This document shows, one piece after another, positions 4,464 through 62,453 of a stretch of 64,000 nucleotides of DNA. The notes beneath the pieces are model-generated. The model made no database searches. It saw only the letters and a program-made list of their open reading frames with translations, and was not told the origin of the DNA. Origin of the DNA: Tetradesmus obliquus (taxonomy: Eukaryota > Chlorophyta > Chlorophyceae > Sphaeropleales > Scenedesmaceae); the NCBI GenBank assembly GCA_030272155.1, contig CP126207.1:806001-870000 (forward strand). Direction: 5' to 3'. Position 1 is the first letter of the stretch. Every line of letters starts with the position of its first letter. Position numbers and translations under genes: made by a program.

Positions 4464-13720
<9,257 letters not shown>

Positions 13721-22502: not shown

Positions 22503-22534
<32 letters not shown>

Positions 22535-22632
22535 AGGCAACGGCACCTGCCGCTTCCAGCACCCCCTCATCTTCCCCAACAGGGCCGGCAGCACCCTCTT
22601 CGTGTACCACTGCACACTCACACTGGCAACAC

Positions 22633-22667
<35 letters not shown>

Positions 22668-28602: not shown

Positions 28603-31013
28603 ATGGCGAAGGCCGTGGCAGCAGCAGCCATGTTGCTGCTGTTCGCTGCAAATCAAGCTGCAGGTACGTGAAAATGACTTCATGGAGCCAGAACTGCATT
28701 TCTGGTAGCAGCAGCATGGCCAGCAGCACCTCTGGTGTCAACGGTGTGCACAACCAACTCCGTCGCAGCACCACTGGCAGCGTGTTTTAAATAGCTTCAT
28801 TGTAAAAAAGCATAATATTACTATTAGATGCGCTGGATTTACATGTGTATTGCTCAGCAGTACACCAGGACACAGGACAACACGTTGCTGCCTGCTGCTG
28901 CTCACATTTTGCACTGCACCCGATCCTCGCCTGCAGCTTGGAAGGACCCGAATTGCAAAGACGTAGTCGTTGGCGAGTCAAACACTCTTGGTGTGGTGGG
29001 CGAGAATAAGCCCATGCAGCAGGTTGACCACACAGAGCAGTGGAGGCAGTACGGCCAGATTACAAAGCTCAATCTGTACTACAGCTGGAATTACGGCTGC
29101 CTGCAAGGCATCAAGGTAGGTTGACATTTTGCATGCAGTTGTTTTTATATGGGCAGTAGGTTTTGTGCTGCAGTTGCTGGCATCATAGTTGATGCCAGTC
29201 TTGAGCCAGTCTCGAGCAATTCTTCTTTAGTAGCAGCAGCAGCAGGGGCAGCAGCAGCAGGTTGACCACACTGAGCAGTGGAGGCAGTACGACCAGATTA
29301 CAAAGCTGAACCTGTACTACAGCTGGAACTACGGCTGCCTGCAAGGCATCAAGGTAGGTGGACATTTGCATGCAGTCACGTAAAACCTTGATGCAGTTGA
29401 TTATTTGGTTGGACAGTAGGTGTTGTGCTGCAGCTGCTGGCATCATGTTTGACGCCAGTCTTGAGCAAAGGTAGGAGGAACACAGCAGATACTGTTGTGG
29501 TTTGCTTACAGCCGAGGTTACTGCAGCAGCTGCTGCGGAGGTGATGGAGGCTGTCTGGTGCAGCGCGCCAGCTGTAGCAGCAGCACCAACGCTGGCAGCA
29601 GCGGGGGCAGCAGCAGCAGCAGCGCTGGCAGCAGCAGAGGCCGCAGCTACTTCGAGGTCAGTTCTCCGCAACAGCTGTTGTTTTGATTAACCGCCCAGCT
29701 CAAGTTAAATGTAGTCACTGGTTGAGGTGATGTGCTGCCATCAGCAGTGTTGGCTGGCATAGTAATCTAGTACACTTGCATCCAACTACGTTGCTGCTGC
29801 TGCTGCTGCTGCTGCAGGCCACGTACAGTTACAAGGCAGGTAATGCTCTGATCATCGGGCACGAGAAGAACCTGTACAGTCGCATCTGACTGCTGCTGCT
29901 GCTGCTGCTGTTGCAGGCCACATACGGTTACAAAGCAGGCAATGCTCTGATCATCGGGCACGAGAAGAACCTGTACAGTCGCATCTGACTGCTGCTGCTG
30001 CTGCTGTTGCAGGCCACATACGGTTACAAAGCAGGCAATGCTTTGATCATCGGGCACGAGAAGAACCTGTACAGTCGCATCTGACTGCTGCCGCTGCCGC
30101 TGCTGCTGCAGGCCACATACGGTTACAAAGCAGGCAATGCTCTGATCATCGGGCACGAGAAGAACCTGTACAGTCGCATCTGACTGCTGCTGCTGCTGCT
30201 GCTGCTGCAGGCCACATACGGTTACAAGGCAGGCAATGCTCTCATCATCGGGCACGAGAAGAACCTGTACAGTCAGCATCTGGAGCTGGCAGACTATGAG
30301 CACGTGGTGAAGGCAGACTGGCGCCAGCAGCCCAACAAGTGAGCATCCTTGTCTAAGTTTAATATCTGCCAGATTTTGAGAGTAACATGGCAGCTGTGGG
30401 TCGATATCAGCTGGCGAGCACAGTACAAATTGGTTTTCACGAGCACATGGTCATACCTTGCTGCCGGCAGCAGCCGCGCAAGAGAGTATCTGCAGTGGTG
30501 GCTGCATCAGCGGCAGGCTAGCACCTGTACAGTCAGCACCTGGAGCTGGCAGACTATGAGCATGTGGTCAAGGCCAGCCAGCAGCCCAACAAGTGAGCAG
30601 GCTTACACCTAGTGTGCATTGGTTTGCATGTGTTCAAGTGTGCTGTGGCAGCTGTGGGCTGGTGTCTGCCGGCTGGTTGTACCCTGCTGCCGGCAGCAGC
30701 AGCGTAAGTATGTGCAGCAGCGGCTGCAGCAGCAGCAGCAGCAGCAGCAGCAAGTGACACTGGGAGCTGGCAGACTATGAGCATGTGGTCAAAGCGGTCT
30801 GGCGGCAGCAGCCCAGCATATGACTATATCTATATGTGCATACAACAGGCAGCCACACGTGATAGCTGCAGACGCAAGCGCAGCACAGCAGCAGCAGTTT
30901 ACACAGCAGCGGCAACAGCAGCAGCAGGGGAAGCAGCATCAGCAGTAGGATGCTGCAGTCAGCAGCGTGTGGTGAGATGTCTGTGCATTGCGCGGGCGCC
31001 CGGCATCGGCCAT

Positions 31014-34427: not shown

Positions 34428-37226
34428 ACAGGCAAGCCTTGTATTGAGGTGGTGAACCACCCCGGTCCACTGCTGCACATGCCGCTCAACAAGCCAGGCC
34501 TGCCAGTGCCCAACGGTGAGCAAACAGGTTGTTTCACGAGTACAGGATACAGTGTGGTTGTTATGTTGTGGAGTATGTTGACATGCATGCATGTATGTCT
34601 CTGCATGCTGCACATGCTGCTCAACAAGCCATGACTGCCAGTGCCAAATGGTGAGCAAACGAGTACAGGATACAGTGTGGTTGTTATGTTGTGGAGTATG
34701 ATGACATGCATGCTTGCTGTATCTGCAGCTGCACATGCCGCTCAACAAGCCAGGCCTGCCAGTGCCAAATGGTGTGATCAATCTACTTGTTAGGATGGTG
34801 TTCTACTCAAAACAAAGACCCCATTGGCACCTAGCAGTGCAGCATTCCACTTCGTACTCTTCATACATGATCGCTGGCAGCTCCGCTGGCTGCTGCCATC
34901 TGCAGCAGACTCATCCAACACTCCAGCCCACAAAGCGCTGCCGCTGTTGCTGCTGCTGCCGCAGGCGAGTACATGGGCAGCCTGTGGAGCATCTGCAATG
35001 TTCACTGACTCACATAATGCTGCTGCTGCTGCTGCTGCCGCTGCTGCTGCTGCTGCTGCTGCTGCAGGCGAGTACATGGGCAGCCTGTGGAGTGTGTGCG
35101 ACTGCGGTGCATCGCCAAGCCCGGTGCTGCCTGCGCTGCCGAGCTTTGATTTGTCAAAGCACCTCCTGGGCAAGATGCACCCTGTGTTTGCGGCGTTGGT
35201 GGCAGGTGGGTGTTATGTCCATTCTGTCAGCATGTGCTGTGCATGGAGGTGTTCTTTCTGGTATGTTACAGTGTGTTTGCAGGTGGGTTGGGCTATATGT
35301 GGGGTGTTGGGCATGAAACTGCTGCAATGTATCGCTGAGCCCAGTGCTCCCTGCGCTGCCCAGTTTCGACTTATCAAAACATCTGCTGGGCAAGATGCAC
35401 CCCGTCTTTGCAGCACTAATGGCAGGTGGGGTGGTGGCAGATTTGTGTTTGGGACTGGGTATCTTCAGCTTTGCAGTGCAGTGTGATGATGATGCTAGTG
35501 TTGCTGAGGGATGAGCTGTTATGTTGGCGCTGCTATGTCCAGCCCCGTGCTGCCAACTTTGAACGCCTGAGCAAGCACCTGCTGGGCAAGATGCACCTAG
35601 TCTTTGCCGCACAGGTGGGCGGGTGTGTGTCTGGGTGTATGTTTCTCGCTGTGGGTGCGTGCCTGCTTCTGCACGAGGTTTGTGTGTCTTTCCTGCTGTG
35701 CGCACCGCTGCCCCAGCATGTCTCATGCGCTGCTGATGCTGATGCCGATGCTGCTGCTGCTGCTGATGCTGATGCTGCTGCACACGCTGCAGGCATGGGT
35801 GACAACTCCTGCCAGGGCCCGCTGTGTGCGCTGCTGCCTCAGGTTCATTGGCATAATACATGCACTGTGGCTGACTGCACTTCTGCTGTTACTCTATATC
35901 CTGCTGCTGCTGTTGTTCAGGTATGGGTGACGGCTCCTGCCAAGGGCCGCTGTGCGCGCTGCTGCCACAGCTGCCCGTTCTCAACGCAAGCCTGCCAGAA
36001 ATCCAAATCCCAATGACGCTGCTGGCCAACCTGACAGCCCTGCTGAAGCCTAAACCTCTGCCTGATGTGGCGCCTCTGGCAGGTGAGCGCGGTTTAGGCA
36101 GCCCGCTAGTGTCTAAATCCTGTTGTTGTAAATATAAATCCCAATGACGCTGCTGGCCAGCCTGACAGCCCTGCTGAAGCCTAAACCCCTACCTGACGTG
36201 GCTCCGCTGGCAGGTGAGCGCGGTTTAAGCAGTGCGCTGGTGTCTAAACCCTGCTGTTCTACATATAGTTGACGCTGCTGGCCAACCTGACAGCCCTGCT
36301 GAAGCCTAAACCTCTGCCTGATGTGGCGCTACTGGCAGGTGACGGGGGTTAAGCAGTTCCGCACTGTCTTAAACCTGCTGGAAATTGATCTCCATGCAGC
36401 GCCCCGCTCCGTGCCCCACCTGTCGTTCTTCTGGCATGATCACATTTTGCAACACCATGCACATCTGTTATTTGGCTGGCCCTCGTCGCGTGGGTTTCTG
36501 CACTGCCCTGCAGGCCTCATCCCAGCCACCCAGATGCCTGATACATCCAAGTAATGCCCGTCACCCTGCCCGACCTGCCGCAATTTACAAATGATGATGT
36601 GCATGTGCATCACTCGAAGCGTGCACACTTCATGCTGACACCCCTTCTGTTGCTTCTGCCGCCCCTGCAGGCCTCATCCCAGCCATCCAGCTGCCAGAAA
36701 TTCAAATCCGCGCCACGCCCCTCACCCTGCCCGACCTGCCGCCATCCATGCACGATCACGTCTGACACACCATGTACATGTCCTGGCTGACCCCCGTTGT
36801 GTTTGTTTCTGCCGCCCTGCAGGCCTCATCCCAGCCATCCAGCTGCCAGAGATTCAAATCCGCGCAACGCCCCTGACCCTGCCTGACCTCCCTACCTTTG
36901 AAGACTGTGTCGCCAACTTTGTCACCATTGCCAAAACCCTGGCGCCAGCCATCCAGGCGGTTTTGCCGGCGCCACTTTCAAAACCTGATTTGGTGCACCT
37001 GGTTGCCAGCCTGCTGCCGCAGCTGCGCTTCGAAGCCCCGCAGATCGAGCTCGCCGCCGACGTTCAAAATTCGAATTCAAATTCAAACAGGTTTGAATTT
37101 TCGGACCTGGTGGGCCTGGTGAAAAAGGCGCTGCCCAAGCTGCCACAGTTCCCGGCTATGGCCGCGAACTTCCCGGGGATGCCGCGGGTGACAGTAGAGG
37201 TCAGCAGGAGTTCTTCGCAGAGCTGA
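28603..37226 (+). CDS. Secreted jacalin-like lectin with Pro/Thr-rich and Cys-rich regions (11 exons)
   Basis: Exons: 28603-28663, 28937-29115, 30211-30338, 31622-31781, 32328-33198, 33571-33705, 34090-34143, 34432-34515, 35068-35205, 35921-36082, 36823-37226; 2376 nt, 791 aa, every junction in phase. Residues 1-20 are a signal peptide (MAKAVAAAAMLLLFAANQAA). Residues about 21-190 resemble a jacalin-type beta-prism: WRQYGQITKLNLYYSWNYG, YKAGNALIIGHEK, CIEFIKLYTNKGKSLAFG, APIGGWLAALKG and a last strand GGLQNLVFIWAKE. Then come a long Pro/Thr/Val-rich linker with GVTPGVT and PVTPVTP repeats (about 195-425), a Cys-rich part (CEGGCCFSSGRCKMPLC and others), and a Leu/Pro-rich C-terminal half. Likely a cell-wall or extracellular glycan-binding protein; ligand unknown. 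Introns and the post-stop region hold many exon-edge copies. The lectin call is by fold pattern, not by sequence search. Confidence 0.8.
29249..29355 (+). repeat. Copy of lectin exon 2 donor half
   Basis: The second half of exon 2 (QQVDHTEQWRQYDQITKLN... to GIK|GTAGGT) is copied about 240 bases downstream with few changes, donor intact. Confidence 0.9.
29818..30210 (+). repeat. Four truncated copies of lectin exon 3
   Basis: Copies start at 29818, 29917, 30013 and 30112; the true exon is at 30211. Each begins (CTG)nCAG|GCCACRTAC and codes ATYGYKAGNALIIGHEKNLYS, and each ends at the same place in CGCATCTGA, where the true exon reads CAGCATCTGGAG. The shared loss suggests one founding truncated unit that was then amplified. 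Unit length is 95-99 bp. Confidence 0.95.
30525..30835 (+). repeat. Two copies of lectin exon 3 donor edge
   Basis: The exon 3 end (LELADYEHVVKA...QQPNK|GTGAGC) recurs at about 30528-30596 with donor intact and at about 30762-30825 with the donor lost. Confidence 0.88.
31461..31545 (+). repeat. Upstream copy of lectin exon 4 start
   Basis: GTAG|GTGCATCGAGTTCATCAAGC to AACAAGAAGTCAG duplicates the first half of exon 4 (CIEFIKLYTNKGKSLAFGNKK), again preceded by a CTG run. Confidence 0.9.
31925..32026 (+). repeat. Copy of lectin exon 4 donor half
   Basis: The exon 4 end (LFQTVAAPVGGWLAALKGEHD to GKK|GTGCGT) is repeated with an intact donor. A diverged copy of the exon 5 start (GTGGCTGGCGGTCTACAGAA) also lies at 32185-32260. 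Confidence 0.9.
33313..33430 (+). repeat. Copy of lectin exon 5 donor edge
   Basis: The Cys-rich end of exon 5 (GDSAFCPVTSPFTRARCEGG and on) recurs about 230 bases downstream. In the copy the donor G|GTGAG has become GGCGAG followed by TGA, so it cannot splice. Confidence 0.9.
34600..35015 (+). repeat. Copies of lectin exon 8 end and exon 9 start
   Basis: HMPLNKPGLPVPNG plus donor recurs near 34608-34655 (with an in-frame TGA) and 34730-34775 (donor GTGTGA). The exon 9 start (GCAG|GCGAGTACATGGGCAGCC) is copied at 34966-35005 before the true exon at 35068. Confidence 0.88.
35330..35845 (+). repeat. Copies of lectin exon 9 end and exon 10 start
   Basis: The exon 9 end (FDLSKHLLGKMHPVFAA) recurs at 35335-35425 and 35535-35615. 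The exon 10 start (GCAG|GCATGGGTGACAACTCC to CTGCTGCCTCAG) is copied at 35793-35842, before the true exon at 35921. Confidence 0.88.
36133..36765 (+). repeat. Copies of lectin exon 10 end and exon 11 start
   Basis: Two donor-side copies of exon 10 (MTLLANLTALLKPKPLPDVA plus GCAG|GTGA) lie at 36139-36215 and 36269-36340. Two acceptor-side copies of exon 11 (CTGCAG|GCCTCATCCCAGCC) start near 36511 and 36670 before the true acceptor at 36822. The two array types meet in the middle of the intron. Confidence 0.9.
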
Positions 37227-47238: not shown

Positions 47239-48044
47239 TGCAGCTCTACAACCTGTGGTTCACCAAGCACATGGCTGCTGCTGTGCTTCTGCCCGCATTG
47301 TTGCATTGTTGCACTGCTGTTGCTGCTGCTGCTGCTGCTGCCTGCAGCTCTACAACCTGTGGTTCACCAAGCACATGGCAGCTGCTGTGCTGCCCCAGCT
47401 GGAGCACAGCAATGACAACGGCAGCAGCAGCAGCAGGCGGCTGGTTGTGAACGCCGTAACGCCTGGCTTTGTACCCACCACAGGTAAGCAGCAAACACGA
47501 ACATGAAAGCAGCAGCAGCAGCGACAGCAGCAGCAGCAGCAAGCGCCTGGTTGTGAATGCAGTGACTCCTGGCTTTGTACCCACCACAGGTGAGCGGCAA
47601 ACACGAACATGAAAGCAGCAGCAGCAGCAGCAGCAGGTGGCTGGTGGTGAGTGCAGTCACGCCTGGCTTTGTACCCACCACAGGTGAGCAGCAAACCGGA
47701 ACACATTTCAATAGCAGCAGCAGCAGTTGGCTGATGGTAAATGCAGTCACGGCCGGCTTTGTACCTACCACAGTTAAGCAGCAACGCTGCCTCCGCCGTA
47801 ACGCCTGGCTTTGTACCCACCACAGGTGAGCTACGACCACGAACAACCAGAAACAGCAGCAGCAGCAGCAATCGCCTGGTTGTAAACGCCGTAACGCCTG
47901 GCTTTGTACCCACCACAGCTGAGCAGCAGCAGCAGCAGCAGCTACAGCTACAGCAGGAGCAGCAGCAGCAGGTGGCTGGTGGTGAGTGCAGTCACACCCG
48001 GCTTTGTACCCACCACAGGTGAGCAGCAAACACGAACAACCAAA

Positions 48045-48082
<38 letters not shown>

Positions 48083-49522
48083 CGACAGCAGCAGCGACAG
48101 CAGCAGCAGCAAGCGCCTGGTTGTAAATGCCATAACGCCTGGCTTCGTACCCACCACAGGTGAGCAGCAAGCTCGAGCATGAAAGCAGCAGCAGCAGCAA
48201 AGCAATGGCAGCAGCAGCAGCAGCAGCAGGTGGCGGCTGATGGAAAATGCAGTTGCACCTGGCTTTGTGCCCACCACAGGTGAGCAGCATGCTATGTAAG
48301 CCATTTCAGCAGCAGCAGACGGCTGGAGGTAAAAGCGGTTACGCCTGGCTGTGTACCCACCACAGGTGAGCAGTAAACCTAGTCAGGCTATGACATCTGC
48401 ATTGCTACTCTGTGTCACAGGTATGCTGTGCCCAGCGGAACAACAGTGAATTGCTGCTGTAGCGTGTCACGCGCTACCAGTGCTGTAGTTACAATGCCTG
48501 CAATGCCCCCTGACATCTTGCTGCTGCTGCTGCTGCTGCTGCCGCCGCCGCCGCAGAGCTGAGCCGCTATGCTGGACCGCTAGGGAGGTTTGCCATGAAG
48601 CGCATCATCTCATGGGCCCCCTTTGCCGTCACGGTGCAGGTGAGACATCAGCTGTGTTTTGTAAAGATGGACAGCCTAGCATAAAAAAAAGCAAAGCTGC
48701 GCACCCCGCCCAGCACATGGCATGTGTGTTGTACGAGCAGCAGGTGGCTCATCACCGCTTCTGGGGGTGGAACAAGAGGTTTGTGGTGAAGCACGTCACA
48801 TCATGGGCACCCTTCGCCATGAAGCACATCATCTCATGGGCCCCCTTTGCCGTCACGGTGCAGGTGAGGGTGTGAGACGCCATGCTTCCGAGGCATGGAC
48901 TAAAGGGTTTGCTGTGCAGCACATTAATTCATGGAGCATTTTTTGAGGCACGAATTGTGAGGTTTGCGATGAAGCACATCATTTCCTGGGCGCCCTTTGC
49001 CGTCACGGTGCAGGTGAGCCAGCAATACACCAGCCGTGGTGTGTTGACTGTGTGATTGGACACGTCAGGGCAGGCCTGCGGGTGGCTCTGAGTCAACGCC
49101 TTCTGCTGTTGCTGTTGCTGTTCCCCTGCAGGAAGCTGTGCGCTGCTGTAATTTGTGCTGCACATGCTCTGAAGTGCCGCGCCAGAATCACCGGCTGCTG
49201 TCTTGGTTCTGCTGCTGTATCTGTGCCTGCAGGAGGCCGCAAACCGCGTGGCTGCTGTTTGTGATGGCGCAGCAGAGGGCAAGACGCTTGCCAGTGGCTA
49301 AGAATTTGTTGTTACTGCTGTTGGTTTTGCTCACAGGAGTCAGCAAGCCGTGTGGCAGCAGTGTGCGATGGCGCAGCGGAAGGTGAAAGCTGTGGCCAAC
49401 TGTACAGCAGGCGGGCAGTGGCGGACACTTCAGTCGGGCCTGCGGGTGATGCTGAGGCAGCAGCAGCGCTGTGGCAGCAGAGCTGCATGGATGTTGGGAT
49501 CCAGCAGTACCTGCCGCAGTAG
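43690..49522 (+). CDS. Short-chain dehydrogenase/reductase, retinol-dehydrogenase/WWOX-like (9 exons)
   Basis: Exons: 43690-43732, 43823-43886, 44381-44565, 45536-45591, 45876-45961, 46791-46947, 47348-47483, 48557-48639, 49337-49522; 996 nt, 331 aa, all phases close. The start is in a strong Kozak context (GCCATGG). Rossmann features are complete: TGGNTGIG (residues 10-17, cofactor binding), a basic ACR end of beta-2, [16 protein letters not shown] (94-98), [23 protein letters not shown], catalytic YSLTK (Tyr193, Lys197) and [10 protein letters not shown]. This is the layout of classical SDRs near the retinol dehydrogenase, WWOX and POR-like group; NADP(H) preference and substrate cannot be told. 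Ser/Ala/Gln runs near residues 50 and 175 come from (CAG)n. No transit peptide or membrane segment seen. Confidence 0.9.
44668..45334 (+). repeat. Five copies of SDR exon 3 donor edge
   Basis: The exon 3 end ([18 protein letters not shown] plus GTG donor) recurs near 44676, 44850, 44980, 45155 and 45283, spaced 130-175 bp. The catalytic-fold motif CNAG is kept in all; most keep GCAG|GTGYR, and the copy near 45206 reads GCAG|GTTTGT. Confidence 0.93.
46515..46695 (+). repeat. Two copies of SDR exon 6 acceptor edge
   Basis: CAG|GTCGCAGCTGTACAGCACTG and AACAG|GTCACAGCAGTACAGC copy the exon 6 start ([14 protein letters not shown]), then GGGCACTTCA, before the true exon at 46791. Confidence 0.9.
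47225..47300 (+). repeat. Copy of SDR exon 7 acceptor edge
   Basis: CCTGCAG|CTCTACAACCTGTGG ([14 protein letters not shown]) is present just over 100 bases before the true exon at 47348, each after a long CTG run. Confidence 0.9.
47545..48370 (+). repeat. Nine copies of SDR exon 7 donor edge
   Basis: The exon 7 end ([16 protein letters not shown] plus donor) recurs nine times at 85-120 bp spacing, separated by CAG runs. Most donors read CACAG|GTGAGC. Two are broken (CACAGTTAAGC near 47770 and CACAGCTGAGC near 47918). Coding changes are mostly conservative. Confidence 0.95.
48770..49018 (+). repeat. Copies of SDR exon 8 donor edge
   Basis: The exon 8 end ([22 protein letters not shown]) recurs at 48779-48864 (itself containing two partial copies) and 48958-49014, donors intact. 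Confidence 0.92.
49120..49285 (+). repeat. Copies of SDR exon 9 acceptor edge
   Basis: CTGCAG|GAGGCCGCAAACCGCGTGG to GATGGCGCAGCAGAGGG (near 49231-49280) copies the exon 9 start ([16 protein letters not shown]). A weaker one begins at about 49132. Confidence 0.82.
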
Positions 49523-50666: not shown

Positions 50667-51019
50667 GCCGCCTGTTGGCCCAGCCGTCACCGGCACAACA
50701 GCATAACCGCCGCCCCAACCACCACAACACATGCCAATTGACAATGATTGTGAAGACAACAACAGAAATTGCTTCTAGATCACAGGCTAAACATTGATCA
50801 CCGCCGCACAGGTGCGCCTGCGCCAGCTGGCTTGCACCCAGCACTGCCGCCAGTCAAGCCAGCAGCAGCAGCGACTTGCTACGTTGAACGTGATATTGCA
50901 AAAATGACGAGGTCACAACTCCCTGGCACTGCGCCAATCAATGCGTCAATCACTGCCTCACAGGCCTGCCTGTGCCAGCTGCCCTGTGTGCGGCTCTGCT
51001 GCCAGTCAAGCCAGCAGCT

Positions 51020-51071
<52 letters not shown>

Positions 51072-51233
51072 TGCCGCCTGTTGGCCCAGCCGTAACCGGC
51101 ACTACAGCATAAACGCCTCCCCAGCCCCCTCCCCAGCCGCCACAACACATGCCAATTGACAATGATTGTCCACAGCGAAAAACTTGTGAAGACAACAACA
51201 GAAATTGCTTCTAGATCACAGGCTAGACGTTAA
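50395..51233 (-). repeat. Copies of the ENTH-ARF GAP terminal segment, beyond its stop
   Basis: On minus, the last codons and stop context ([10 protein letters not shown] then TGA region) recur near 50800-50870 and 50405-50460, and the [18 protein letters not shown] part near 51075-51130 and 50670-50725. They lie in the 3' flank of the fusion gene in register with each other, at about 400-bp spacing. Confidence 0.82.
50489..50550. repeat. 62-bp near-perfect palindrome
   Basis: Two 31-base arms (50489-50519 and 50520-50550) with one mismatch and no spacer, centred on GACAGCTGTC. It lies about 690 bases past the stop of the minus-strand fusion gene and could form a hairpin in RNA of either strand or a cruciform in DNA. 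Confidence 0.9.
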
Positions 51234-51441
51234 TCACCGCCGCACAGGGGCACCTGCGCCAGCAGGCTTGTACCCAGCATTGCTGCCCGTCAAGCCAGCA
51301 GCAGCAGCAGCAGCAGCAGCGCCGCCTGTTCGCCCCGCTGCAACTGGCACTACAGCATAACCGCCTCCCCACCCGCCTCCCCAGCCGCCACCAAACCCTA
51401 CCGGCGCATAGTAAACCCTAGCTGGGGCGCCGCCAGTAAAC

Positions 51442-51475
<34 letters not shown>

Positions 51476-51762
51476 AACCGCCTGTTGCTCCAGCAGCTGT
51501 GGCAAAAGGTGGCCTGCCGGTCCGCCCTGCTGCTGCTGCTGCTGCTGCTCCTGTTAGCTGCTGCTGGTACGGCCTGTACCCTCCGGTGAACCCTGCTGCT
51601 GCTGCTGCTGCTGCTCCTGTGAGCTGCTGCTGGTAAGACCTGTACCCTCCGGTAAACCCTGCTGCTGCTGCTGCTGCTGCTGCTGTGTGGGGGTTGTAGC
51701 TGGGAGCAGTAGCTGTAGCAAAGCCAGGGGTGACTGGTATCAGCGGTACTGTGCTTGCAGGC

Positions 51763-51795
<33 letters not shown>

Positions 51796-51920
51796 TTAGC
51801 AACAGCAGCTGCTGATTGGCCATTGCTGCTGCTGTTGTTTAGAGGGCCAGGACCACCATTGCTGCTGCCTGGTGCTGTAGCAGCACCAGCAGTAGCAGCG
51901 GATGCAGGACTACCCTGTCT

Positions 51921-51960
<40 letters not shown>

Positions 51961-52014
51961 GTCAGTGCTGCTACTCCAGCCTGTCCTGAAGCACCGTTGG
52001 CCGTCACCGCAGCT

Positions 52015-52049
<35 letters not shown>

Positions 52050-52229
52050 ATCCTCTTCATCATCTTCCTCATCACTGCTGAAAGTGTACTCATAGGTGCT
52101 GATCACGCCACCCCCTGCCCCGAACAAATGCACCCCTATGTGACTGTGGCCGTGGCTGTGCCTGCTACCAAGATGATGGCTAATGGATTGCAGGAGAGAT
52201 CTGGCAGGAGGAGCAGCAGCAGCAGGAGG

Positions 52230-52262
<33 letters not shown>

Positions 52263-52435
52263 TGGGGCTTGCTGCTGCTGCTTCTGCTGGATGCTACTGC
52301 TGGCAAACGGGTTGGATGCAGACAGCTGTTGCTGCTGCTGCTGCTGCTGTGGTGCGTCCCCGTTCACAAACGGATCAAACACATACTGCTGCTGCTGCTG
52401 CTGCTTGACCTGGCACCCTGTAACACCACCACCAC

Positions 52436-52478
<43 letters not shown>

Positions 52479-53505
52479 GTGATGTCGCTGCCGCTGGTGC
52501 CGTGCTGCATCTGCTGCTGCTTGGGCTGCAGCATCAGCACCAGTTGCGATGCGCTGCTCTATCCAATCTATGACTGACATTGCAGGCCCTGGCACATCCA
52601 TTGGGGCGTCCATGACGTCAAAAATGACACTGTTAGTAACAATGTTACTTCTGCTGCCACCCGACTCATCGAGCTGGAGGAGGTCTGCCACAGGAGCAGC
52701 AGCAGCAGCAGCAGGCGCTGCTATTGTTGCTGCTGCTGATGGGGTCGTGCTAGGAAAGGCAGCATCTTCAAAGCCTGCTGCTGCTGCAGGCTTTGACTCC
52801 TGCTGCGTCAGCTGTGCCTGCTGCTGCTGCTGTGGCGGCTGTGGCGGTGCTACTGCTGTTGCTGCCACAGGCGCTGCTAATTGCTGCTGCTGCTGCTGGA
52901 TTGAGGGAGGCCATGTGGTGCCTGGCTTGACCCACCTACAGGCGGCAGCAGCAGCACCGGCAGCAGCAGTAGCAGCATCAGCAGCAGATCAATCAGCAAT
53001 TTAGTACACACACGACCTTGCAGCACCAGCCAGCAATGCACACCAAGCAACGTTGATGACGCCCAACGTACAAACACTCCGCCCTTGAGTTATCATTCAC
53101 ACTGTTTGCAAGCACAGCGCCATGCTGTGGAAGTGCATCGAGATGCGCAGATCACAAACAACTTATCAAACAAGAGAAGTAACATTGGTTTTGTGATTTT
53201 AGAAGCGAGCTCACCCCTGGTCGATGTATTTCTGCCGGATGAAGGCAGCCATGTCAGGCGAGTCCCTGGCAGGCCTCCTGTGGGGCCCAGGGCTCAGCCC
53301 GCCACCAGCACCAGGGTTTAAGCCGGCGCCGGCGCCAGGGTTTAGGCCGCCGCTGCTGCTGCTGGTGGGGTTTTGGTCTGCTGGTGGCAGCAGTGCCTCA
53401 AAGTGAGCATTGGCTGCTGCATTGCCTGTACTTGCCATGAACACGACTTGCTCAGGTAGCCAGGTGTCGAGGGTACAGGAGCGCACCTGACATTTATAAC
53501 AATGT

Positions 53506-53547
<42 letters not shown>

Positions 53548-53663
53548 CCAGCAGCAGCAGCACCAGCAGCACCAGCAGGGAAAACAATCAGCAGTGCCAT
53601 AAAGACTTGCTCTGGTAGCCAGGTGTCCAGCGTGCAGGAGCGCACCTAAAAGTAACAACACGT

Positions 53664-53723
<60 letters not shown>

Positions 53724-53945
53724 CCGGCAGGGACAGCTTAGCAGTGCCATAACACGACTTGCTCAGGTAGCCAGGTGTCCAGTGTGCAGGAGCACACCTG
53801 ACACTGGAAAAAGTTTGGCAGCAGCAGCAGCAGGGGGGGGGGGGGGGGGGGGGGGGCAAGTTAGCAGTGCCATGAACACGACTTGCTCAGGTAGCCAGGT
53901 GTCGAGGGTACAGGAGCGCACCTGACAGTCACAATACAGTTATGA

Positions 53946-53977
<32 letters not shown>

Positions 53978-56900
53978 AACTGGACAGGTGATCCCTGCTG
54001 CAATATCTATCACCAACTTGAAGACCTGATCTGGCCAAGAGTGTGTTCAGGGTACACCAGCTGTGTGACAGCACTTGTGGACTTCTGCACCATCACTGGT
54101 GTGCCTAATTGCAGACATGTTTCATACTTCTCTGTACCTTGGATATGTGTGCGCCCAGGCCCCTGTGCGTGCCGGCGCACCGCATGCAGATGAACACCCC
54201 AAGATTGACCGACGCCCAGCTAGCTGTCTCCTTGCAATCGTTGTTGTTGTCATCACACGTGTTACTAAGTTTGTAATGAATATTCAGACTGTGTCCGTAT
54301 TCTTTTTTATCAGACATTTACCTTGGATATGTGTGCGCCCAGGCCCCTGTGCGTGCCGGCGCACCGCATGCAGATGAACACCCCAACATTGACCGACGCC
54401 CAGCTAGCTGTCTCCTTGCAATCGTTGTTGTTGTCATCACACGTGTTACTAAGTTTGTAATGAATATTCAGACTGTGTCCGTATTCTTTTTTATCAGACA
54501 TTTACCTTGGATATGTGTGCGCCCAGGCCCCTGTGCGTGCCGGCGCACCGCATGCAGATGAACACCCCAAGGTTGACCGACGCCCAGCTAGCTGTCTCCT
54601 TGCAATCGTTGTTGTTGTCATCACACGTGTTACTAAGTTTGTAATGAATATTCAGACTGTGTCCGTATTCTTTTTTATCAGACATTTACCTTGGATATGT
54701 GTGCGCCCAGGCCCCTGTGCGTGCCGGCGCACCGCATGCAGATGAACACCCCAAGATTGACCGACGCCCAGCTAGCTGTCTCCTTGCAATCGTTGTTGTT
54801 GTCATCACACGTGTTACTAAGTTTGTAATGAATATTCAGACTGTGTCCGTATTCTTTTTTATCAGACATTTACCTTGGATATGTGTGCGCCCAGGCCCCT
54901 GTGCGTGCCGGCGCACCGCATGCAGATGAACACCCCAACATTGACCGACGCCCAGCTAGCTGTCTCCTTGCAATCGTTGTTGTTGTCATCACACGTGTTA
55001 CTAAGTTTGTAATGAATATTCAGACTGTGTCCGCATTCTTTTTTATCAGACATTTACCTTGGATATGTGTGCGCCCAGGCCCCTGTGCGTGCCGGCGCAC
55101 CGCATGCAGATGAACACCCCAAGGTTGACCGACGCCCAGCTAGCTGTCTCCTTGCAATCGTTGTTGTTGTCATCACACGTGTTACTAAGTTTGTAATGAA
55201 TATTCAGACTGTGTCCGTATTCTTTTTTATCAGACATTTACCTTGGATATGTGTGCGCCCAGGCCCCTGTGCGTGCCGGCGCACCGCATGCAGATGAACA
55301 CCCCAACATTGACCGACGCCCAGCTAGCTGTCTCCTTGCAATCGTTGTTGTTGTCATCACACGTGTTACTAAGTTTGTAATGAATATTCAGACTGTGTCC
55401 GCATTCTTTTTTATCAGACATTTACCTTGGATATGTGTGCGCCCAGGCCCCTGTGCGTGCCGGCGCACCGCATGCAGATGAACACCCCAAGATTGACCGA
55501 CGCCCAGCTAGCTGTCTCCTTGCAATCGTTGTTGTTGTCATCACACGTGTTACTAAGTTTGTAATGAATATTCAGACTGTGTCCGTATTCTTTTTTATCA
55601 GACATTTACCTTGGATATGTGTGCGCCCAGGCCCCTGTGCGTGCCGGCGCACCGCATGCAGATGAACACCCCAACATTGACCGACGCCCAGCTAGCTGTC
55701 TCCTTGCAATCGTTGTTGTTGTCATCACACGTGTTACTAAGTTTGTAATGAATATTCAGACTGTGTCCGCATTCTTTTTTATCAGACATTTACCTTGGAT
55801 ATGTGTGCGCCCAGGCCCCTGTGCGTGCCGGCGCACCGCATGCAGATGAACACCCCAAGATTGACCGACGCCCAGCTAGCTGTCTCCTTGCAATCGTTGT
55901 TGTTGTCATCACACGTGTTACTAAGTTTGTAATGAATATTCAGACTGTGTCCGTATTCTTTTTTATCAGACATTTACCTTGGATATGTGTGCGCCCAGGC
56001 CCCTGTGCGTGCCGGCGCACCGCATGCAGATGAACACCCCAAGGTTGACCGACGCCCAGCTCGGCCGCCCGGCAGGCGATGCATCCTGGCAGTCCGCGCA
56101 GCGCCTGCAGTGCATTGTAAGTGCAGCACGGCACAGTACAGACAAGTTGTTGTTACAGCATACCCAAGTTGACCAAAACCCTAAAACCCCAGCTGGGGCG
56201 CCCAGCAGGCGATGCATCCTGGCAGTCTGCGCAGCGCCTGCAGTGCAGTAGAAGCAAAATAACACAGCACGGCACAGTAAAGGTTTCTTCCTAACCACAA
56301 CATCACCATAAGGCTGGAATTTCGTTTCATTTTGTTTCATCTCTACTAGGGTTGACTGACGCCCAGCTGGGGCGGCCAGCAGGCGATGCGTCCTGGCAAT
56401 CCGCACAGCGCCTGCAGTGCAGTAGAAGCAAAATAACACAGCACGGCACAGTAAAGGTTTCTTCCTAACCACAACATCACCATAAGGCTGGAATTTCGTT
56501 TCATTTTGTTTCATCTCTACTAGGGTTGACTGACGCCCAGCTGGGGCGGCCAGCAGGCGATGCGTCCTGGCAATCCGCACAGCGCCTGCAGTGCAGTAGA
56601 AGCAAAATAACACAGCACGGCACAGTAAAGGTTTCTTCCTAACCACAACATCACCATAAGGCTGGAATTTCGTTTCATTTTGTTTCATCTCTACTAGGGT
56701 TGACTGACGCCCAGCTGGGGCGGCCAGCAGGCGATGCGTCCTGGCAATCCGCCCAGCGCCTGCAGTACAGTAGAAGCGAAATACCACAGCACGGCACATT
56801 AACGACAACGTTTTTTCTAACCACACCATCACTATAAGGCTGGTGTTTCGTTTCATGTTGTTTTGTCTGTACTTGGGTTGACCGACGCCCAGCTGGGGCA

Positions 56901-59900
56901 GCCTGCAGGCGATGCGTCCTGGCAATCTGCACAGCGCCTGCAGTACAGTACAGCACAGCACAGCGCAGCACCCGTTTGCAGACAGGTTGTTGGTTCCTGA
57001 TGAAATGTCAGTAGGCAGTGGATGGTTTCCTTGATTGCAGATTGCAGATGCACCCTGGCAGTCTGCACAGCGCCTGCAGTACAGTACAGCACAGCGCGTC
57101 CACCGATACAGTAACATGGCAAGTTGTTTGTTGTTGATTGTATACCTAATTGAATTGGGTGGTGAATTGGTGTTCCAACCGCAGGCAGGTCCAACCGCAG
57201 GCAGGAATTGGTGTCCCAACCAGATTGTCACAAGTCTGATTGATGCCCAGCTCAGCCTGCCGGCAGGCGATGCATCCTGGCAGTCCGCGCAGCGCCTGCA
57301 ATAAGTTACAAGTGCAGCATGTCATAGTACAGACAAGTTGAGTCGTTGTTGTTGATGTTGTCTCACTGGTGGTGGGGTAGCTTTCCACCCACAGATTGTC
57401 CCAAGATTGACCCACGCCCAGCTAGGCCTGCCTAACTCATCACCCGGTTTCTGGCCTGGTCAGCAGCTCCGCCAACCGCAGCGTGTTCCCCTATTCATAA
57501 CATTTATGCAAGATAACAGCAAAACTGTGCAGATATCCAAATCATGTGGAGCAGCACGCCCTCAAGTTACCGTTTCTTTGGCTCAGGCCGCAGCTGCCGC
57601 AGCTCTGCTAACCTCAGCTGCAGCAATGCAGGGCTGTATGACCAACACAGCAGAAGGTCAAACTCTCCAATACGGCATATTCAAGGCAAGTTCAAGACAC
57701 GCAGTCACCTGTTTTCTGGCCTGGCCAGCAGCTGCCGCAGCTCCGCCACCCGCAGCTTATTCTGCTCACAACAGCACAGCAAGATAAGATAGCAGCCGGA
57801 CTGCGCAACTAACAAGTAATGTGGAGCAGCACGCCCTCAAGTCGCCTGTCTCTTGCTCACGCCGCAGCTGCCGCAGCTCTGCTAACCTCAGCTGCAGCAA
57901 TGAAGTCTCTTATGGATAACACAGCAAATATTCAAAATCTAGTGCCAAAAAAATCACGCCCCAAATATATGTTCAATCACCTGTTTTCTGGCCTAGCCAG
58001 CAGCTGCCGCAGCTCCCCCACCCGCAGCTTGTTCTCCTCAAAACTAACACCCTTGGCCTCCCCAAAACCGCCGCCTCCAGCTGCTAAACCCCGCCCAGGG
58101 CCGGCCGCTAAACCCTGATCCACTGCCGCAAAACCGCTGCCGGCGGCGCTGCTGCTGCCGCCGGGACGCAGCAGTGCGGCGCTGCCGCTGCCTGCGCTGC
58201 CGCCTGCATAGCTGCTGTTATACTGACTGTTATAACGGTTATTATACATGTCATTTGTCGAGACAGCTGCGGGTGCTGCTGCTGCTGCTGCCACGAAGGG
58301 ATCACGTCCTGCTGCTGCGTAGCTACTGCTGCTGCTGCTGCTGTACTGCTGCTGCTGCTGCAGGCCGGTTGGTGACAGCGCCCGCAAGCGGTCTGCTGCT
58401 GCAAATCTGCGCTGCTGCAGTAGCTGAGGGTCCTGCAAGAGCTCCAGCACCGCTGCAGCCCTGCACAATGAAACAATGGCACAAAATCACAAAGGTTGAG
58501 TTGGAGATAAGTGTTTTATCGAACCCTTTCAGCCTCAGTGCTGCAAGTTAACACTGCAGCTGGGGGTCCTGCAAGAGCTCCTGCACTGCTGCAGCCCTGC
58601 ACAATGAAACAATAAGCATAAAATCAGAATAGCACAAGCAACTATACGGATAGACCTCATACTCAGCACTGCATGTTACAACAACAGCAGCTGAGGCTTG
58701 TGCAGCGAATGCGCATCTGGCAGCTTGCCAGCAGCTGCTGCAGCAGCACCTGCAGCACCCTACGGCTATGCAACACACGTCATAGATGACACACATAGTA
58801 AAACAAGATTTAAATTTTGATCCACCTGATCCTGACGTTTGACCCGCAGTCAACGCCGCAGTGTCCGATTGACTCAAAGTTGACCAGCTGCAGCAGCAGC
58901 CCCGGAAGCTCCTTGTAATTACTTTACATGTTATGTAGTAGCAGGAAGAGCGTGTGATGCCCTGGGACTTTTAGCCGACTTTTAGCACTGTTACCACAAG
59001 TCCGGAAGGTAGTCGAATGTTTGACCCACCTGATCCTGACGTTTGACCCGCAGTCAATGCCACGGTGTCCAATGGACTCAAAGTTGACCAGCTGCCGCAG
59101 CAGCGTCTGCAGCTCCCTGCTGCCAGCCAGCTGCACCGCTGCGGTTGAACCGCGCACCAAAAAGAACTCAAGTGCCTACAAGACAAAAGAACAAGGTTTG
59201 TGCAGTTAGCTTTAAGTGGAGGCTCTGAAACCTTAGGGCCCTGCAGCTCTCTGCTGCTGGCCAGCTGTACTGCAGCGCTTGACCCGCACACCAGAAGGAA
59301 CTCAAGTGCCTGCAGGACAGAAGGACAGGGTTTTGGAATTCATGTCAATTTAGGACTCAAGCAAAGCTGTGAAACCTGAAGCCGCTGCAGCTCCCTGCTG
59401 CTGGCCAGCTGTACCGCTGCGCTTGACCCGCACACTAGCAGGAATCCAAGTGCCTGCAGGACAGAAACAACAAGATTTGTGAGGCTAAGGTTCAAATCGA
59501 GGCTCTGAAACCTTAGGGCCCTGCACCTCTCTGCTGCCGGCCAGCTGCACCGCAGCGCTTGAGCCCCGCACCAGCAAAAAATCAGTGCCTGCAGGACAAA
59601 ACAACAGGGTTTCCCGTTTTTCAGGGATTTCATAGCCCCTGCAGCTCCCTGCTGCCGGCCAGCTGTACTGCAGTGCTTGAACCACGCACAAACAGAAACT
59701 CCAGCGCCTGCAGGCGCCCGCCGCACCACTTTTAATTCACAGATTGAGGCTGCCAAAGCTGGAATTGACAGCGCACGCAGCTGCCGCTAATTCTCTCATA
59801 CATCAGATGGTTCTGTGTATTGTGTTCAAAGCCGACTCACCAGCAGTGCCTTGTACACGTTGCGCCACTTCTCAGGACCCCGTGACAGCCGGAACTCCAG

Positions 59901-60188
59901 CACTGCCTGAATAACAGGCAATGTAACACAAATGACATGTTACCAAACGTGTCACAATTTATGGCAGCTCTGCAATGGGCCAGAAAGTTCTGTCGTGAGT
60001 GCTTGAAAAATTTACAACAGCAGAAATTATCCACATGTGCAGCAGGAGGCACATGGGTTTGACAACTTCATTGCAGAGTTACATCAGAAGGTTGTGAAAA
60101 ACTTGTTACTTACAAAAATAACGTAGCAGTGCTCCGGGTTGTGTGACAGGTCAGCCAGCTCAGCCAGCTGCAGCCCAGTGGGTCCCCT

Positions 60189-60236
<48 letters not shown>

Positions 60237-62453
60237 GCGGCGGTGGCTGCAGCTATCAGAGTGCAGTTGGCAGCAAATATGGCATGTCTGTCAGCCATAT
60301 ACACACCCATGTACCAGCACCGCCTACAAACCTGCTGCTGCTGCTGCTGCTGCTGCTGGCTCTGCTGCTGCTAAAAATAACATGCACCATCAAAATACAA
60401 GAGCTCCACAATTAGCCAACACAACAGTCACACTGCAGCTGCAGAACCACAGCCGACTGCAGCCCAGTACTCTATAACTGCCGATCTGCCTAAACCCCAG
60501 GAGGTGTGCACTGTAAACCAAGCGAACGTGTGCATAAAGGGCAAACCACGCACCAAGGGTCCTTTCGTGTGGCTTCTCTTGCTTTTCTCTCCACTGTGGT
60601 GAAGGAGCAAAGGAGCAAAGCCGCTGCCCTGCCTAGAACCCACACTCGTTAGTCAAACCCCAACAATACTAGGCTCCACTGAAGCCCCAAAAACGCACGC
60701 ACCATGGGTCTTTGCGTGTAGCTTCTCTTGCCTTCCTTTCCACAGTGGTGAACGGGTGCAGACGGGCACACCTGACGGCTGTGTTCCCAAAACCCAACAA
60801 ACAACAACAACCCCAAACAACTGTTGTTGTGAGCACAGCGGTTCGTATCTCAAACACGCACCAAGGGTCTTTGCGCGTGGCTTCTCTTGCTTTTCTCTCC
60901 ACAGTGGTGAAAGGATGCAGGCGGCCATACTTGATGGCTGTGCAGTAGTCCCGCAGCCAGGTGTAACCCTCGCGCGTCACCTGTGTTACAACATGATTGT
61001 AAAAGGGCAGAATGACATGTCACCAACTGCGGAGGGGGGATGCGTTGTGTGACCCGCAATTGTCCCGCAGCCAGGTGTAACCCTCGCGCGCCACCTGTGT
61101 TTCACACCCAACGCAACAAGCAGATTGACATGTCACCAGCTGCAGAGAGGGGATGAGTTGTGTGACCCGCAGTAGTCCCGCAGCCAGGTGTAATCCTTGC
61201 GCGTCACCTGTGTTATAACACAAATATGACAAGCAAAGAGACATGTTACGAATTGCGGAGGGGGGATTCGTTGTGTGACCCGCATTAGTCCCGCAGCCAG
61301 GTGTAACCCTCGCGCGTCACCTGTGTTACAAACCCAATGTAACAAGCAGATTGACATGTCACCAGCTGCGGAGAGGGGATGAGTTGTGTGACCCGCAGTA
61401 GTCCTGCAGCCCAGTGTAAACCTCGCGCTTCACCTGTGTTATAACAAAAAAACATAATAATTGCAACATGCAGAGTGACATGTCACAAATTGCTGCCGCA
61501 AAGCAAAATGAGTTGATTGACCCCAGCTGCTGCTGTTCAGTGCGGCAGCTGCCGCGGCCGCCCCCGCCACGGCGCCTCCGCCGCTGCTGCTGCTGCTGAG
61601 TGTGTACTGACGTCCGCGCAATGCGCCAGTGAACCAGGTTGTGCTGCTGCTCCTGCTGCTGCTGCTGCTGCTGCCAGCTCACCTCAGCTACACGCTCCCC
61701 AAGCGCCGCCTTGTTGCCGCCAGGTGGCATGTAGTCACCTGCTGCTGCTGCTGCTGCTGTTGCTGCCTGATCACTTCAGTGATGCGGCTGTTCCGTAACA
61801 CTCGCATGCTGCTGCTGCTGTCAAGTTTCTTGGCGCCTGCTCACCTCAGCCACGTGCTCTCCTGTTGTAATGCAGCACACGTCTGAATGCATGTACATTA
61901 ATGAGTGGAATTTGAATGTGTGTGCCAGCTCACCTCAGCGACACGCTCCCCAAGCCCCGCCTTGTTGCTGCCAGGTGGCATGTAGTAACCGCCACCAGCA
62001 GCCATCATGCCGCTGCTGCTGCTGCCTGCTCACCTCAGCGTCACGACCCTTACACACCAGATGCATGCTGTTGCTGCTACATAACTTTTGCTGCGCCTGC
62101 CCACCTCCCATTGACTACCGAATTCAAATGCTTGTACAAATAAGATGTGGCCATGCAGGCCAGCTCACCTCAGCTACACGCTCCCCAAACCGTGCCTCGT
62201 GCTGCTGCTGCTGCTGCTGCTGCTGTTGATGCTGCTGTGTTACTTTCTACTGCCGGCTCACCTCAGCAACACGCTCCCCAAGCCCCGCCTTGTTGCCGCC
62301 AGGTGGGATGTAGTAGCCGCCACCAGCAGCCATCATGCCGCTGCTGCTGCCGCTGTTGATGGCACCAGGGTACATGCTGCTGCTGCTGCTGCTGACGCCG
62401 GTGTGCATCATGCTGCTGCTGCTGCCGCTGCCGACGGCACTGCTGCCGTACAT
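51234..62453 (-). CDS. ENTH-domain + ARF GAP fusion protein (9 exons, 1058 aa)
   Basis: Minus exons, 5' to 3': 62453-62262, 60980-60862, 60186-60114, 59906-59841, 59175-59030, 58460-57981, 56104-55978, 53486-53215, 52935-51234; 3177 nt, all phases close. ENTH, about residues 65-230: [104 protein letters not shown], about 345-495: [35 protein letters not shown] (zinc Cys 361, 364, 385, 388; Arg finger 393), [32 protein letters not shown], closest to plant AGD5/NEV. The tail is Gln/Ala-rich with clathrin box LLQLD (about 577), DPF (252 and about 680) and NPF (about 701). Exon 6 is one open frame holding the ENTH end and the ARF GAP start, so fusion does not rest on a guessed splice. Expected role: clathrin-coated budding and Arf GTP hydrolysis at TGN/endosomes. 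Odd: Cys364-Cys385 spacing is 20, not 16. ATG 62453 is provisional. Confidence 0.88.
53590..53930 (-). repeat. Three copies of fusion exon 8 acceptor edge
   Basis: On minus, copies of the exon 8 start (AG|GTGCGCTCCTG coding [16 protein letters not shown]) lie near 53600-53648, 53750-53802 and 53877-53922, separated by CAG runs and a 24-G run (53833-53856). The true acceptor is next to 53486. Confidence 0.92.
54127..55977 (-). repeat. 184-bp tandem array: ten copies of fusion exon 7 donor half
   Basis: A 184-bp unit recurs ten times with very few differences. Each codes, on minus, [19 protein letters not shown]...HISK followed by the donor GTAAAT and intron start, but lacks the first two zinc Cys. 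Unit starts step by 184 (for example ORF ends at 54310, 54494, 54678 and so on to 55966). Two variable spots (AACATTGACC/AAGGTTGACC/AAGATTGACC and CCGTATTC/CCGCATTC) show a partly alternating pattern. Confidence 0.97.
56165..57305 (-). repeat. Seven copies of fusion exon 7 acceptor half
   Basis: On minus, copies of CTGCAG|GCGCTGYRCRGAYTGCCAG ([21 protein letters not shown]) lie near 56190-56235, 56355-56415, 56530-56590, 56704-56765, 56880-56945, 57048-57080 and 57245-57300. Three successive units (56351, 56525, 56699) are exactly 174 bp apart and nearly identical. They lie upstream of the true exon in transcript order; the donor-half array lies downstream. Confidence 0.95.
57435..57905 (-). 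repeat. Copies of fusion exon 6 donor edge
   Basis: Minus-strand copies of the exon 6 end ([15 protein letters not shown]) lie near 57705-57765 and 57440-57480, with weaker CGCAGCTGCCGCAGCTCTGC copies near 57585-57610 and 57861-57890. ATGTGGAGCAGCACGCCCTC recurs at 57543 and 57820, so the repeat unit is about 277 bp. Confidence 0.85.
58550..58915 (-). repeat. Copies of fusion exon 6 acceptor edge and exon 5 donor edge
   Basis: A copy of the exon 6 start (minus GCAG|GGCTGCAGCAGTGCAGG) lies at 58557-58605. A copy of the exon 5 end ([23 protein letters not shown]) lies at 58826-58911, downstream of the real donor at 59030. Confidence 0.88.
59235..59715 (-). repeat. Four copies of fusion exon 5 acceptor edge
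   Basis: On minus, copies of CTGCAG|GCACTTGAGTTC ([20 protein letters not shown]) lie near 59240-59310, 59385-59455, 59525-59590 and 59638-59710, before the true exon at 59175. The ENTH alpha-helix coding is well kept. Confidence 0.93.
60545..60800 (-). repeat. Two copies of fusion exon 2 donor edge
   Basis: Minus-strand copies of the exon 2 end ([19 protein letters not shown] plus GTGCG) lie near 60700-60760 and 60548-60600, downstream of the true donor at 60862. Confidence 0.88.
61065..61445 (-). repeat. Four copies of fusion exon 2 acceptor edge
   Basis: Minus-strand copies of ACACAG|GTGACGCGCGAGGG ([17 protein letters not shown]) lie near 61065-61102, 61182-61210, 61300-61330 and 61413-61442, spaced about 116 bp, before the true exon at 60980. 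Confidence 0.92.
61675..62245 (-). repeat. Copies of fusion exon 1 donor edge
   Basis: Minus-strand copies of the exon 1 end ([21 protein letters not shown]) lie near 62165-62195, 62028-62055, 61930-61995, 61840-61865 and 61680-61725. The copy at 61930-61995 is the longest. All keep GCTCACCTCAG (donor, as read on plus). Confidence 0.9.

Follow-up and report, generated by a model that had tools for sequence, protein, structure and literature searches.

A conserved ENTH–ArfGAP fusion protein in Tetradesmus obliquus and other green algae, probably an ancient clathrin adaptor equipped with an Arf GAP

A stretch of 64,000 nucleotides of the Tetradesmus obliquus genome (contig C17, positions 806001–870000; the window) was found to encode, on the minus strand at window positions 62453–51234, a two-domain trafficking protein that comprises an ENTH domain, a linker, an ArfGAP domain and a low-complexity tail in which clathrin-box, DPF and NPF motifs occur. 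The gene is real and was found once in the genome assembly, which consists of 17 contigs (104.66 Mb) and was covered by the searches for gene copies. The whole body of evidence is probably best explained by an ancient ENTH–ArfGAP fusion that acts as a clathrin adaptor equipped with an Arf GTPase-activating protein (GAP) at the trans-Golgi network (TGN) or endosome. To our knowledge, plants and animals make ENTH-type coat adaptors and Arf GAPs as separate proteins.

At E-values up to 0.001, exactly two Pfam-A families were detected in the 1058-aa protein. ENTH (PF01417) covered residues 89–213 (E 1.4e-25; 90.1 bits, curated cut-off 24) and ArfGap (PF01412) covered residues 349–444 (E 4.2e-33; 114.4 bits, curated cut-off 28.7), so that both profiles scored far above their cut-offs. 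An earlier sequence-only reading of the window had proposed nine exons closing in frame to 1058 aa, with the end of the ENTH domain and the start of the ArfGAP domain in one frame of exon 6. Re-splicing at GT–AG sites, which are present at every junction, reproduced the coordinates, the phase and a single frame with one stop. Exon 6 (57981–58460, minus strand) encodes residues 199–359, with codons split at both ends, and runs as a single open frame from the last ENTH residues through a low-complexity linker and a conserved 12-residue element to the first ArfGAP residues, in agreement with the Pfam limits of the two domains. Full-length matches to this fusion exon were confined to one site in the genome (40 of 201 candidates scored); among the 66 other matches in the same search, two were edge copies of the exon itself and 64 lay in its CAG-rich stretch (query positions 12–198).

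An independently predicted T. obliquus protein, OEZ85_013522 (P0043), was identical at 484 of 495 residues (98 %) and shared the junctions of exons 1–8. It is 498 aa long and breaks off near the start of exon 9; the longer tail of the 1058-aa product is supported by a 14-residue motif, similar forms of which were aligned in P0001 and P0004. That the gene model wrongly merges two adjacent genes is extremely improbable. The model was derived from genomic sequence alone and decoy splice sites fill the introns, but exon 6 is uninterrupted through both domains, the junctions recur in P0043, and the same architecture was present in 54 other proteins, five of which carry MMETSP labels.

Relatives of the fused protein were collected in two database searches, in each of which only the 8000 candidates with the most shared words were scored, within set length limits, and domains were taken from precomputed Pfam labels. 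A search with residues 55–460 gave 36 matches, 25 of them with both ENTH and ArfGap, and a profile search gave 319 matches, among the best 120 of which 50 carried both domains. Combined, the searches identified at least 54 different database proteins with the two domains, and the order, ENTH then ArfGAP, was identical in all 21 fused proteins that were aligned. An organism was shown for 31 of the 54, and all were green algae of four classes, including P0006, P0047 and P0053, which we assign to green algae presumptively, from their database codes only; the remaining 23 showed no organism. The genera included Volvox, Gonium, Chlamydomonas and Tetradesmus (Chlorophyceae), Coccomyxa, Chlorella, Trebouxia and Picochlorum (Trebouxiophyceae), Ostreobium and Bryopsis (Ulvophyceae) and Tetraselmis (Chlorodendrophyceae). 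Class placement was checked in the taxonomy for five species and is presumed for the others. No named fused protein from outside the green algae was present among the matches listed in either search. A private, recent fusion was thus ruled out; the sequence-only reading had known of no described protein with both domains, and the fused protein proved to be common to core green algae. Among the matches listed, Micractinium tetrahymenae was represented by a fused protein (P0038) and by a second protein (P0026) with ArfGAP only.

Five fused relatives (P0002, P0019, P0020, P0024 and P0057), which include proteins of Tetraselmis astigmatica and Picochlorum oklahomense, carry MMETSP labels, and we take these sets to be RNA-derived. 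The sequence-only reading had named transcripts that separate the two domains as evidence against a fusion; these relatives answer that point in part, by proxy. The database names of the family were hypothetical or Arf-GAP domain-containing protein, and the function names shown (AGD15, arf-gap domain 5) cover the GAP half only. Proteins of Chlamydomonas, Volvox, Chlorella, Coccomyxa, Tetraselmis and others, annotated as Arf-GAP domain-containing but given no name, had the same two domains and grouped with the T. obliquus protein in both domain trees. In passages of PMC3473312, PMC9402974, PMC9274083 and PMC9828777, and in the open-access literature otherwise covered, no description of an ENTH–ArfGAP fusion was found, Sauer 2013 and Heinze 2020 lying outside this scope. 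The survey of ENTH proteins in PMC3473312 covers Chlamydomonas, Volvox and Chlorella, and its main text contains no mention of ArfGAP.

In the ArfGAP half, the best named ArfGAP-only matches were land-plant AGD5 and its likes (among the best 120 of 319 matches), and the nearest solved structures were SMAP2 (listed as SMAP1-like) and SMAP1. On these matches the half is assigned to the AGD5/SMAP-like group, sharing its domain type with Arabidopsis NEV/AGD5/MTV4 and animal SMAP1/SMAP2, and the AGD5/NEV type proposed in the sequence-only reading was upheld. Fifty-seven proteins were matched by both ENTH and ArfGAP profiles built here, one of which was dropped for low coverage. The CX2C...CX2C zinc-finger cysteines were intact in all 56 ArfGAP domains tested, and the arginine of the HR pair was invariant in a 47-row alignment (H365 and R366 of P0043, the latter corresponding to Arg393 of the protein described here, which we take to be the catalytic arginine). 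A variant reading, in which the fusion is real but one half serves solely as a scaffold and the GAP is reduced to a non-catalytic Arf- or clathrin-binding module, would fit the sorting role of Caenorhabditis elegans SMAP-1, which seemed independent of ARF-1.2 (PMC8655793), but with the cysteines and the arginine retained to this extent it is judged improbable.

A tree of 92 ArfGAP rows, built on few columns and weakly supported at many forks, placed the 56 fused rows and one Trebouxia model without ENTH (P0067) on one side with a Shimodaira–Hasegawa-like approximate likelihood-ratio test (SH-aLRT) support of 95. Land-plant AGD5 formed a separate group (support 98), and orthology of the fused ArfGAP with land-plant AGD5 was not supported. 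The AGD5 matches also differed from the fused proteins in possessing, by Pfam, an ArfGAP domain without ENTH. The genome's own AGD5-like protein, encoded on contig C5, paired with another unfused protein (97) and not with the fused clade.

The ENTH half gave a different picture from that proposed in the sequence-only reading, in which it had been likened to MTV1. When the ENTH domain alone was used as query, the fused family was recovered first, followed by land-plant EPSINs (best E 5e-34, named EPSIN 2) and other epsins, and no MTV1-named protein was present among the 58 matches, although MTV1 and the query might have no search words in common. Against PDB, the ENTH profile matched 16 epsin-family sequences (1.3e-37 to 8.8e-6), with epsin 1 chains at the top, and then ANTH and unrelated proteins from 0.03; no tepsin-named entry was present among the 29 PDB sequences matched at E-values up to 10. 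MTV1 is tepsin-like. The sequence of the fused ENTH is thus of the epsin type, as in land-plant EPSIN1/2/3 and the animal and fungal epsins, and neither search yielded an MTV1- or tepsin-named match.

In a 38-row ENTH tree, plant, animal and fungal epsins and this alga's own EPSIN, encoded on contig C11, formed a 13-row side with support 100/100. On the other side were the 24 fused ENTH domains and, outermost but with weak support (85/71), P0118 of Pedinophyceae sp. YPF-701. Since all 24 fused rows fell outside the epsin clade, identity with an EPSIN1–3 orthologue was ruled out, and the fused ENTH is classed from this tree as a separate green-algal lineage of epsin type. The EPSIN matches further differed from the fused proteins in having no ArfGAP by Pfam. 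P0118 belongs to the same ENTH lineage and showed ENTH alone, with no ArfGAP, by Pfam; it is possibly a pre-fusion state, a loss or an annotation error.

A fusion of the MTV1 and MTV4 (NEV/AGD5) orthologues, which would place their TGN-to-vacuole task in one protein, is very unlikely on these results. The ArfGAP half is AGD5-like, and MTV1, an ENTH protein, works with AGD5 at the TGN, where the two are clathrin-linked and cooperate in vacuolar transport (PMC9274083). However, the ENTH half matched epsins and land-plant EPSINs instead of MTV1, and a separate AGD5-like gene has been kept whose product stands apart from the fused clade. EPSIN1 and MTV1 moreover occupy different TGN zones in Arabidopsis (PMC9402974), and the distinction between an epsin-type ENTH and MTV1 therefore bears on function.

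Stand-alone relatives of both halves were retained in the genome that encodes the fusion. The genome search located a clean AGD5-like ArfGAP gene at C5:538597–538941, other ArfGAP genes at C4:7543945–7544211, C11:3526937–3527086 and C2:4710615–4711108, and a stand-alone EPSIN on contig C11. The Pfam ENTH search of the genome performed poorly on split exons, finding two exons of one gene and missing the window's own ENTH. The idea of a natural fusion of two partners stood in so far as one protein carries both domains, whereas replacement of the separate partners by the fusion was ruled out for the AGD5-like protein and EPSIN.

A motif scan identified DPF in the linker (residues 252–254; 58295–58303) and, in the tail, a clathrin box, LLQLD (residues 577–581; 52668–52682), a second DPF (residues 679–681; 52368–52376) and NPF (residues 700–702; 52305–52313), all on the minus strand. 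Epsin tails carry clathrin, DPF and NPF motifs, and in this respect the fused protein resembles them. Across the family, a clathrin box was present in 34 of 53 tails, compared with a mean of 4.45 and a maximum of 10 in 200 shuffles, and the stricter form [DN]L[LIM]x[FLM][DE] in 24 of 53, compared with 0.16 from shuffling. DPF or DPW was found in 22 of 53 tails (3.1 from shuffling) and NPF in nine (1.4 from shuffling). The C-terminus of SMAP2 interacts with clathrin (PMC8655793).

A task as a clathrin adaptor at the TGN or endosome is considered the likeliest because the tails contain clathrin motifs, clathrin at the TGN is under the control of SMAP proteins (PMC8655793) and AGD5 is located there (PMC9274083). 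A role in endocytosis at the plasma membrane, like that of epsin 1 but with an Arf6-type GAP, would be in keeping with the top scores of the ENTH profile at epsin 1 chains and with the DPF and NPF motifs of the tail; it seems unlikely given the link of plant AGD5 to the TGN (PMC9274083).

An ancient fusion acting at the TGN or endosome would have arisen as follows. A distinct pair of paralogues, an ENTH lineage and an AGD5/SMAP-type ArfGAP, most likely became fused in a single event near the base of core green algae and has been kept since. The ENTH domain would bind phosphoinositide membrane at the TGN or endosome, the tail would bind clathrin, and the GAP would turn over Arf-GTP on the membrane patch bound by the ENTH domain, which would couple the recruitment of the adaptor to the release of Arf within one molecule. 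The 1:1 linkage of adaptor and GAP, as the sequence-only reading had stated, follows from the single polypeptide.

Several results weigh against this explanation. The protein of this alga is known solely from genomic sequence, no clathrin box was found in 19 of the 53 tails, NPF was present in just nine, and gamma-ear-like motifs in 12. Support for grouping the fused ENTH domains to the exclusion of P0118 was weak (85/71) in the 38-row tree and reached only 59 in an 87-row quick tree, in which P0021 and P0057 fell near P0118. Pedinophyceae are placed within the core chlorophytes by the NCBI taxonomy, and for this reason P0118 may represent a loss or a mis-annotation rather than a pre-fusion form.

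The field has yet to settle how the actions of coat adaptors and Arf GAPs are coordinated in time. A conserved, natural covalent fusion indicates that the adaptor and Arf GAP steps can be one, and makes their coupling testable. The fusion may also be a trait common to most core green algae, and P0118 may show the unfused state. A more speculative proposal, which we regard as possible but doubtful, is that of a self-timing coat adaptor, in which the ENTH domain, with its extra N-terminal stretch, would sense a curved or phosphoinositide-rich bud and gate the Arf GAP in cis, such that Arf would be released only where the adaptor had bent the membrane. Arf GTP hydrolysis is known to be tied to membrane shape by the ALPS motifs of ArfGAP1 and by the BAR domains of ASAP/ACAP; a self-timing adaptor, if real, would be a third way, retained by a single lineage from early on.

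The remaining exons, all on the minus strand, were as follows. Exon 1 (62262–62453) encodes the start methionine and a Ser/Gly-rich N-terminus (residues 1–64), and its junction matches that of P0043; the position of the first methionine is uncertain because P0043 begins 26 residues later. Exon 2 (60862–60980) encodes a conserved WLRDYxTAIKxGRxHPF stretch, a putative ENTH helix 0, followed by the start of the ENTH domain, which continues in exon 3 (60114–60186; GPTG...YVIF), exon 4 (59841–59906; WRNVYKAL) and exon 5 (59030–59175; running to GSNVR). The ENTH domain retains the WR...YK core, and WRNVYKAL is presumably the phosphoinositide-pocket region by analogy with epsin. The WLRDYxTAIKxGRxHPF stretch is an addition to this core and presumably occupies the position of epsin helix 0. 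Two elements of the family, WLRDYxTAIK and AGExKGV, are present in the protein, the second reading FGEAKGV. Exon 7 (55978–56104) contains the zinc finger (C361, C364, C385 and C388) and Arg393, exon 8 (53215–53486) the remainder of the ArfGAP domain through FIRQKY, and exon 9 (51234–52935) the long Q/A/S-rich tail, with the motif common to P0001 and P0004, and the stop. Within exon 9, in-frame 66-bp repeats (18-residue units) occur at 51525–51687 amid long polyglutamine and polyalanine runs.

The introns of the fusion gene contain copies of the edges of its own exons. By BLAST at E-values up to 1e-6, 33 copies of parts of exons 1, 2, 5, 6, 7 and 8 were detected between 53595 and 62025, affecting 10 of the 16 exon–intron junctions, and because of these copies the exons were chosen by homology. 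Every one of the 17 head copies includes an acceptor AG and is found upstream of the real exon; every one of the 16 tail copies includes a donor GT and is found downstream. The real exon forms the innermost pair. On the minus strand, exon 1 has two tail copies (61683–62025); exon 2 has three head copies (61056–61320) and two tail copies (60554–60783); exon 5 has four head copies (59241–59707) and one tail copy (58826–58915); and exon 6 has one of each (head 58558–58596, tail 57709–57772). Exon 7 has six head copies in a 174-bp unit (56188–57295) and 10 tail copies in a 184-bp unit with 98 % matches (54138–55877), and exon 8 has three head copies (53595–53921). Five of 16 intron-only repeat pairs in the gene did not consist of two listed copies, and their position suggests additional edge copies that have decayed. 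Directly past the real stop, at 50798–51170, the 3' end of the gene is also partly copied, including its last 15 bases and its stop (50812–50798), as if the tail of the last exon had been duplicated too. The rule of heads upstream and tails downstream can be explained by selection, because the reading frame is unaffected by a tandem duplication that spans a junction. Arrays made of intron sequence alone are absent from this gene.

Exon-edge copies were observed in other genes as well. The beta-amylase gene (Glyco_hydro_14) at window positions 7607–13363 contains such copies, with arrays at 9583–10122, 11332–12331 and 12375–12651. One of its exons has eight head copies upstream, seven starting at the edge and one two bases in, and four tail copies downstream, of which two keep GT, one has AT and one gives a match that ends short of the edge; another exon has four head copies upstream. 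The EPSIN gene on C11 has two tail copies downstream (L011 4579–4952), and two other genes of the window have four and one head copies upstream, with exon limits assumed, the first also having two partial downstream matches. Tandem copies resembling exon edges were noted in the window at 29792–30282, 22504–22743, 36005–36380 and 47421–48293, the arrays at 36005 and 47421 having been read by eye. In actin genes (17 matches in the genome search), stacking of one profile part inside a single gene was not evident, and exon-edge copying is therefore not a feature of every gene.

In 20 stretches of 9.9 kb, picked at round coordinates on the 17 contigs, 20 arrays with a period of 60–600 bp were counted, by period alone and not by exon edges, in 12 of the 20 stretches (4.2 % of bases), and the window itself has 18 arrays of this period range (14.3 % of bases); exon-edge copying may thus be genome-wide. 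The mean intron length of T. obliquus is 462 bp, compared with 230–302 bp in three other species of its order (PMC5966456), and the growth of exon-edge arrays could be the cause of these long introns.

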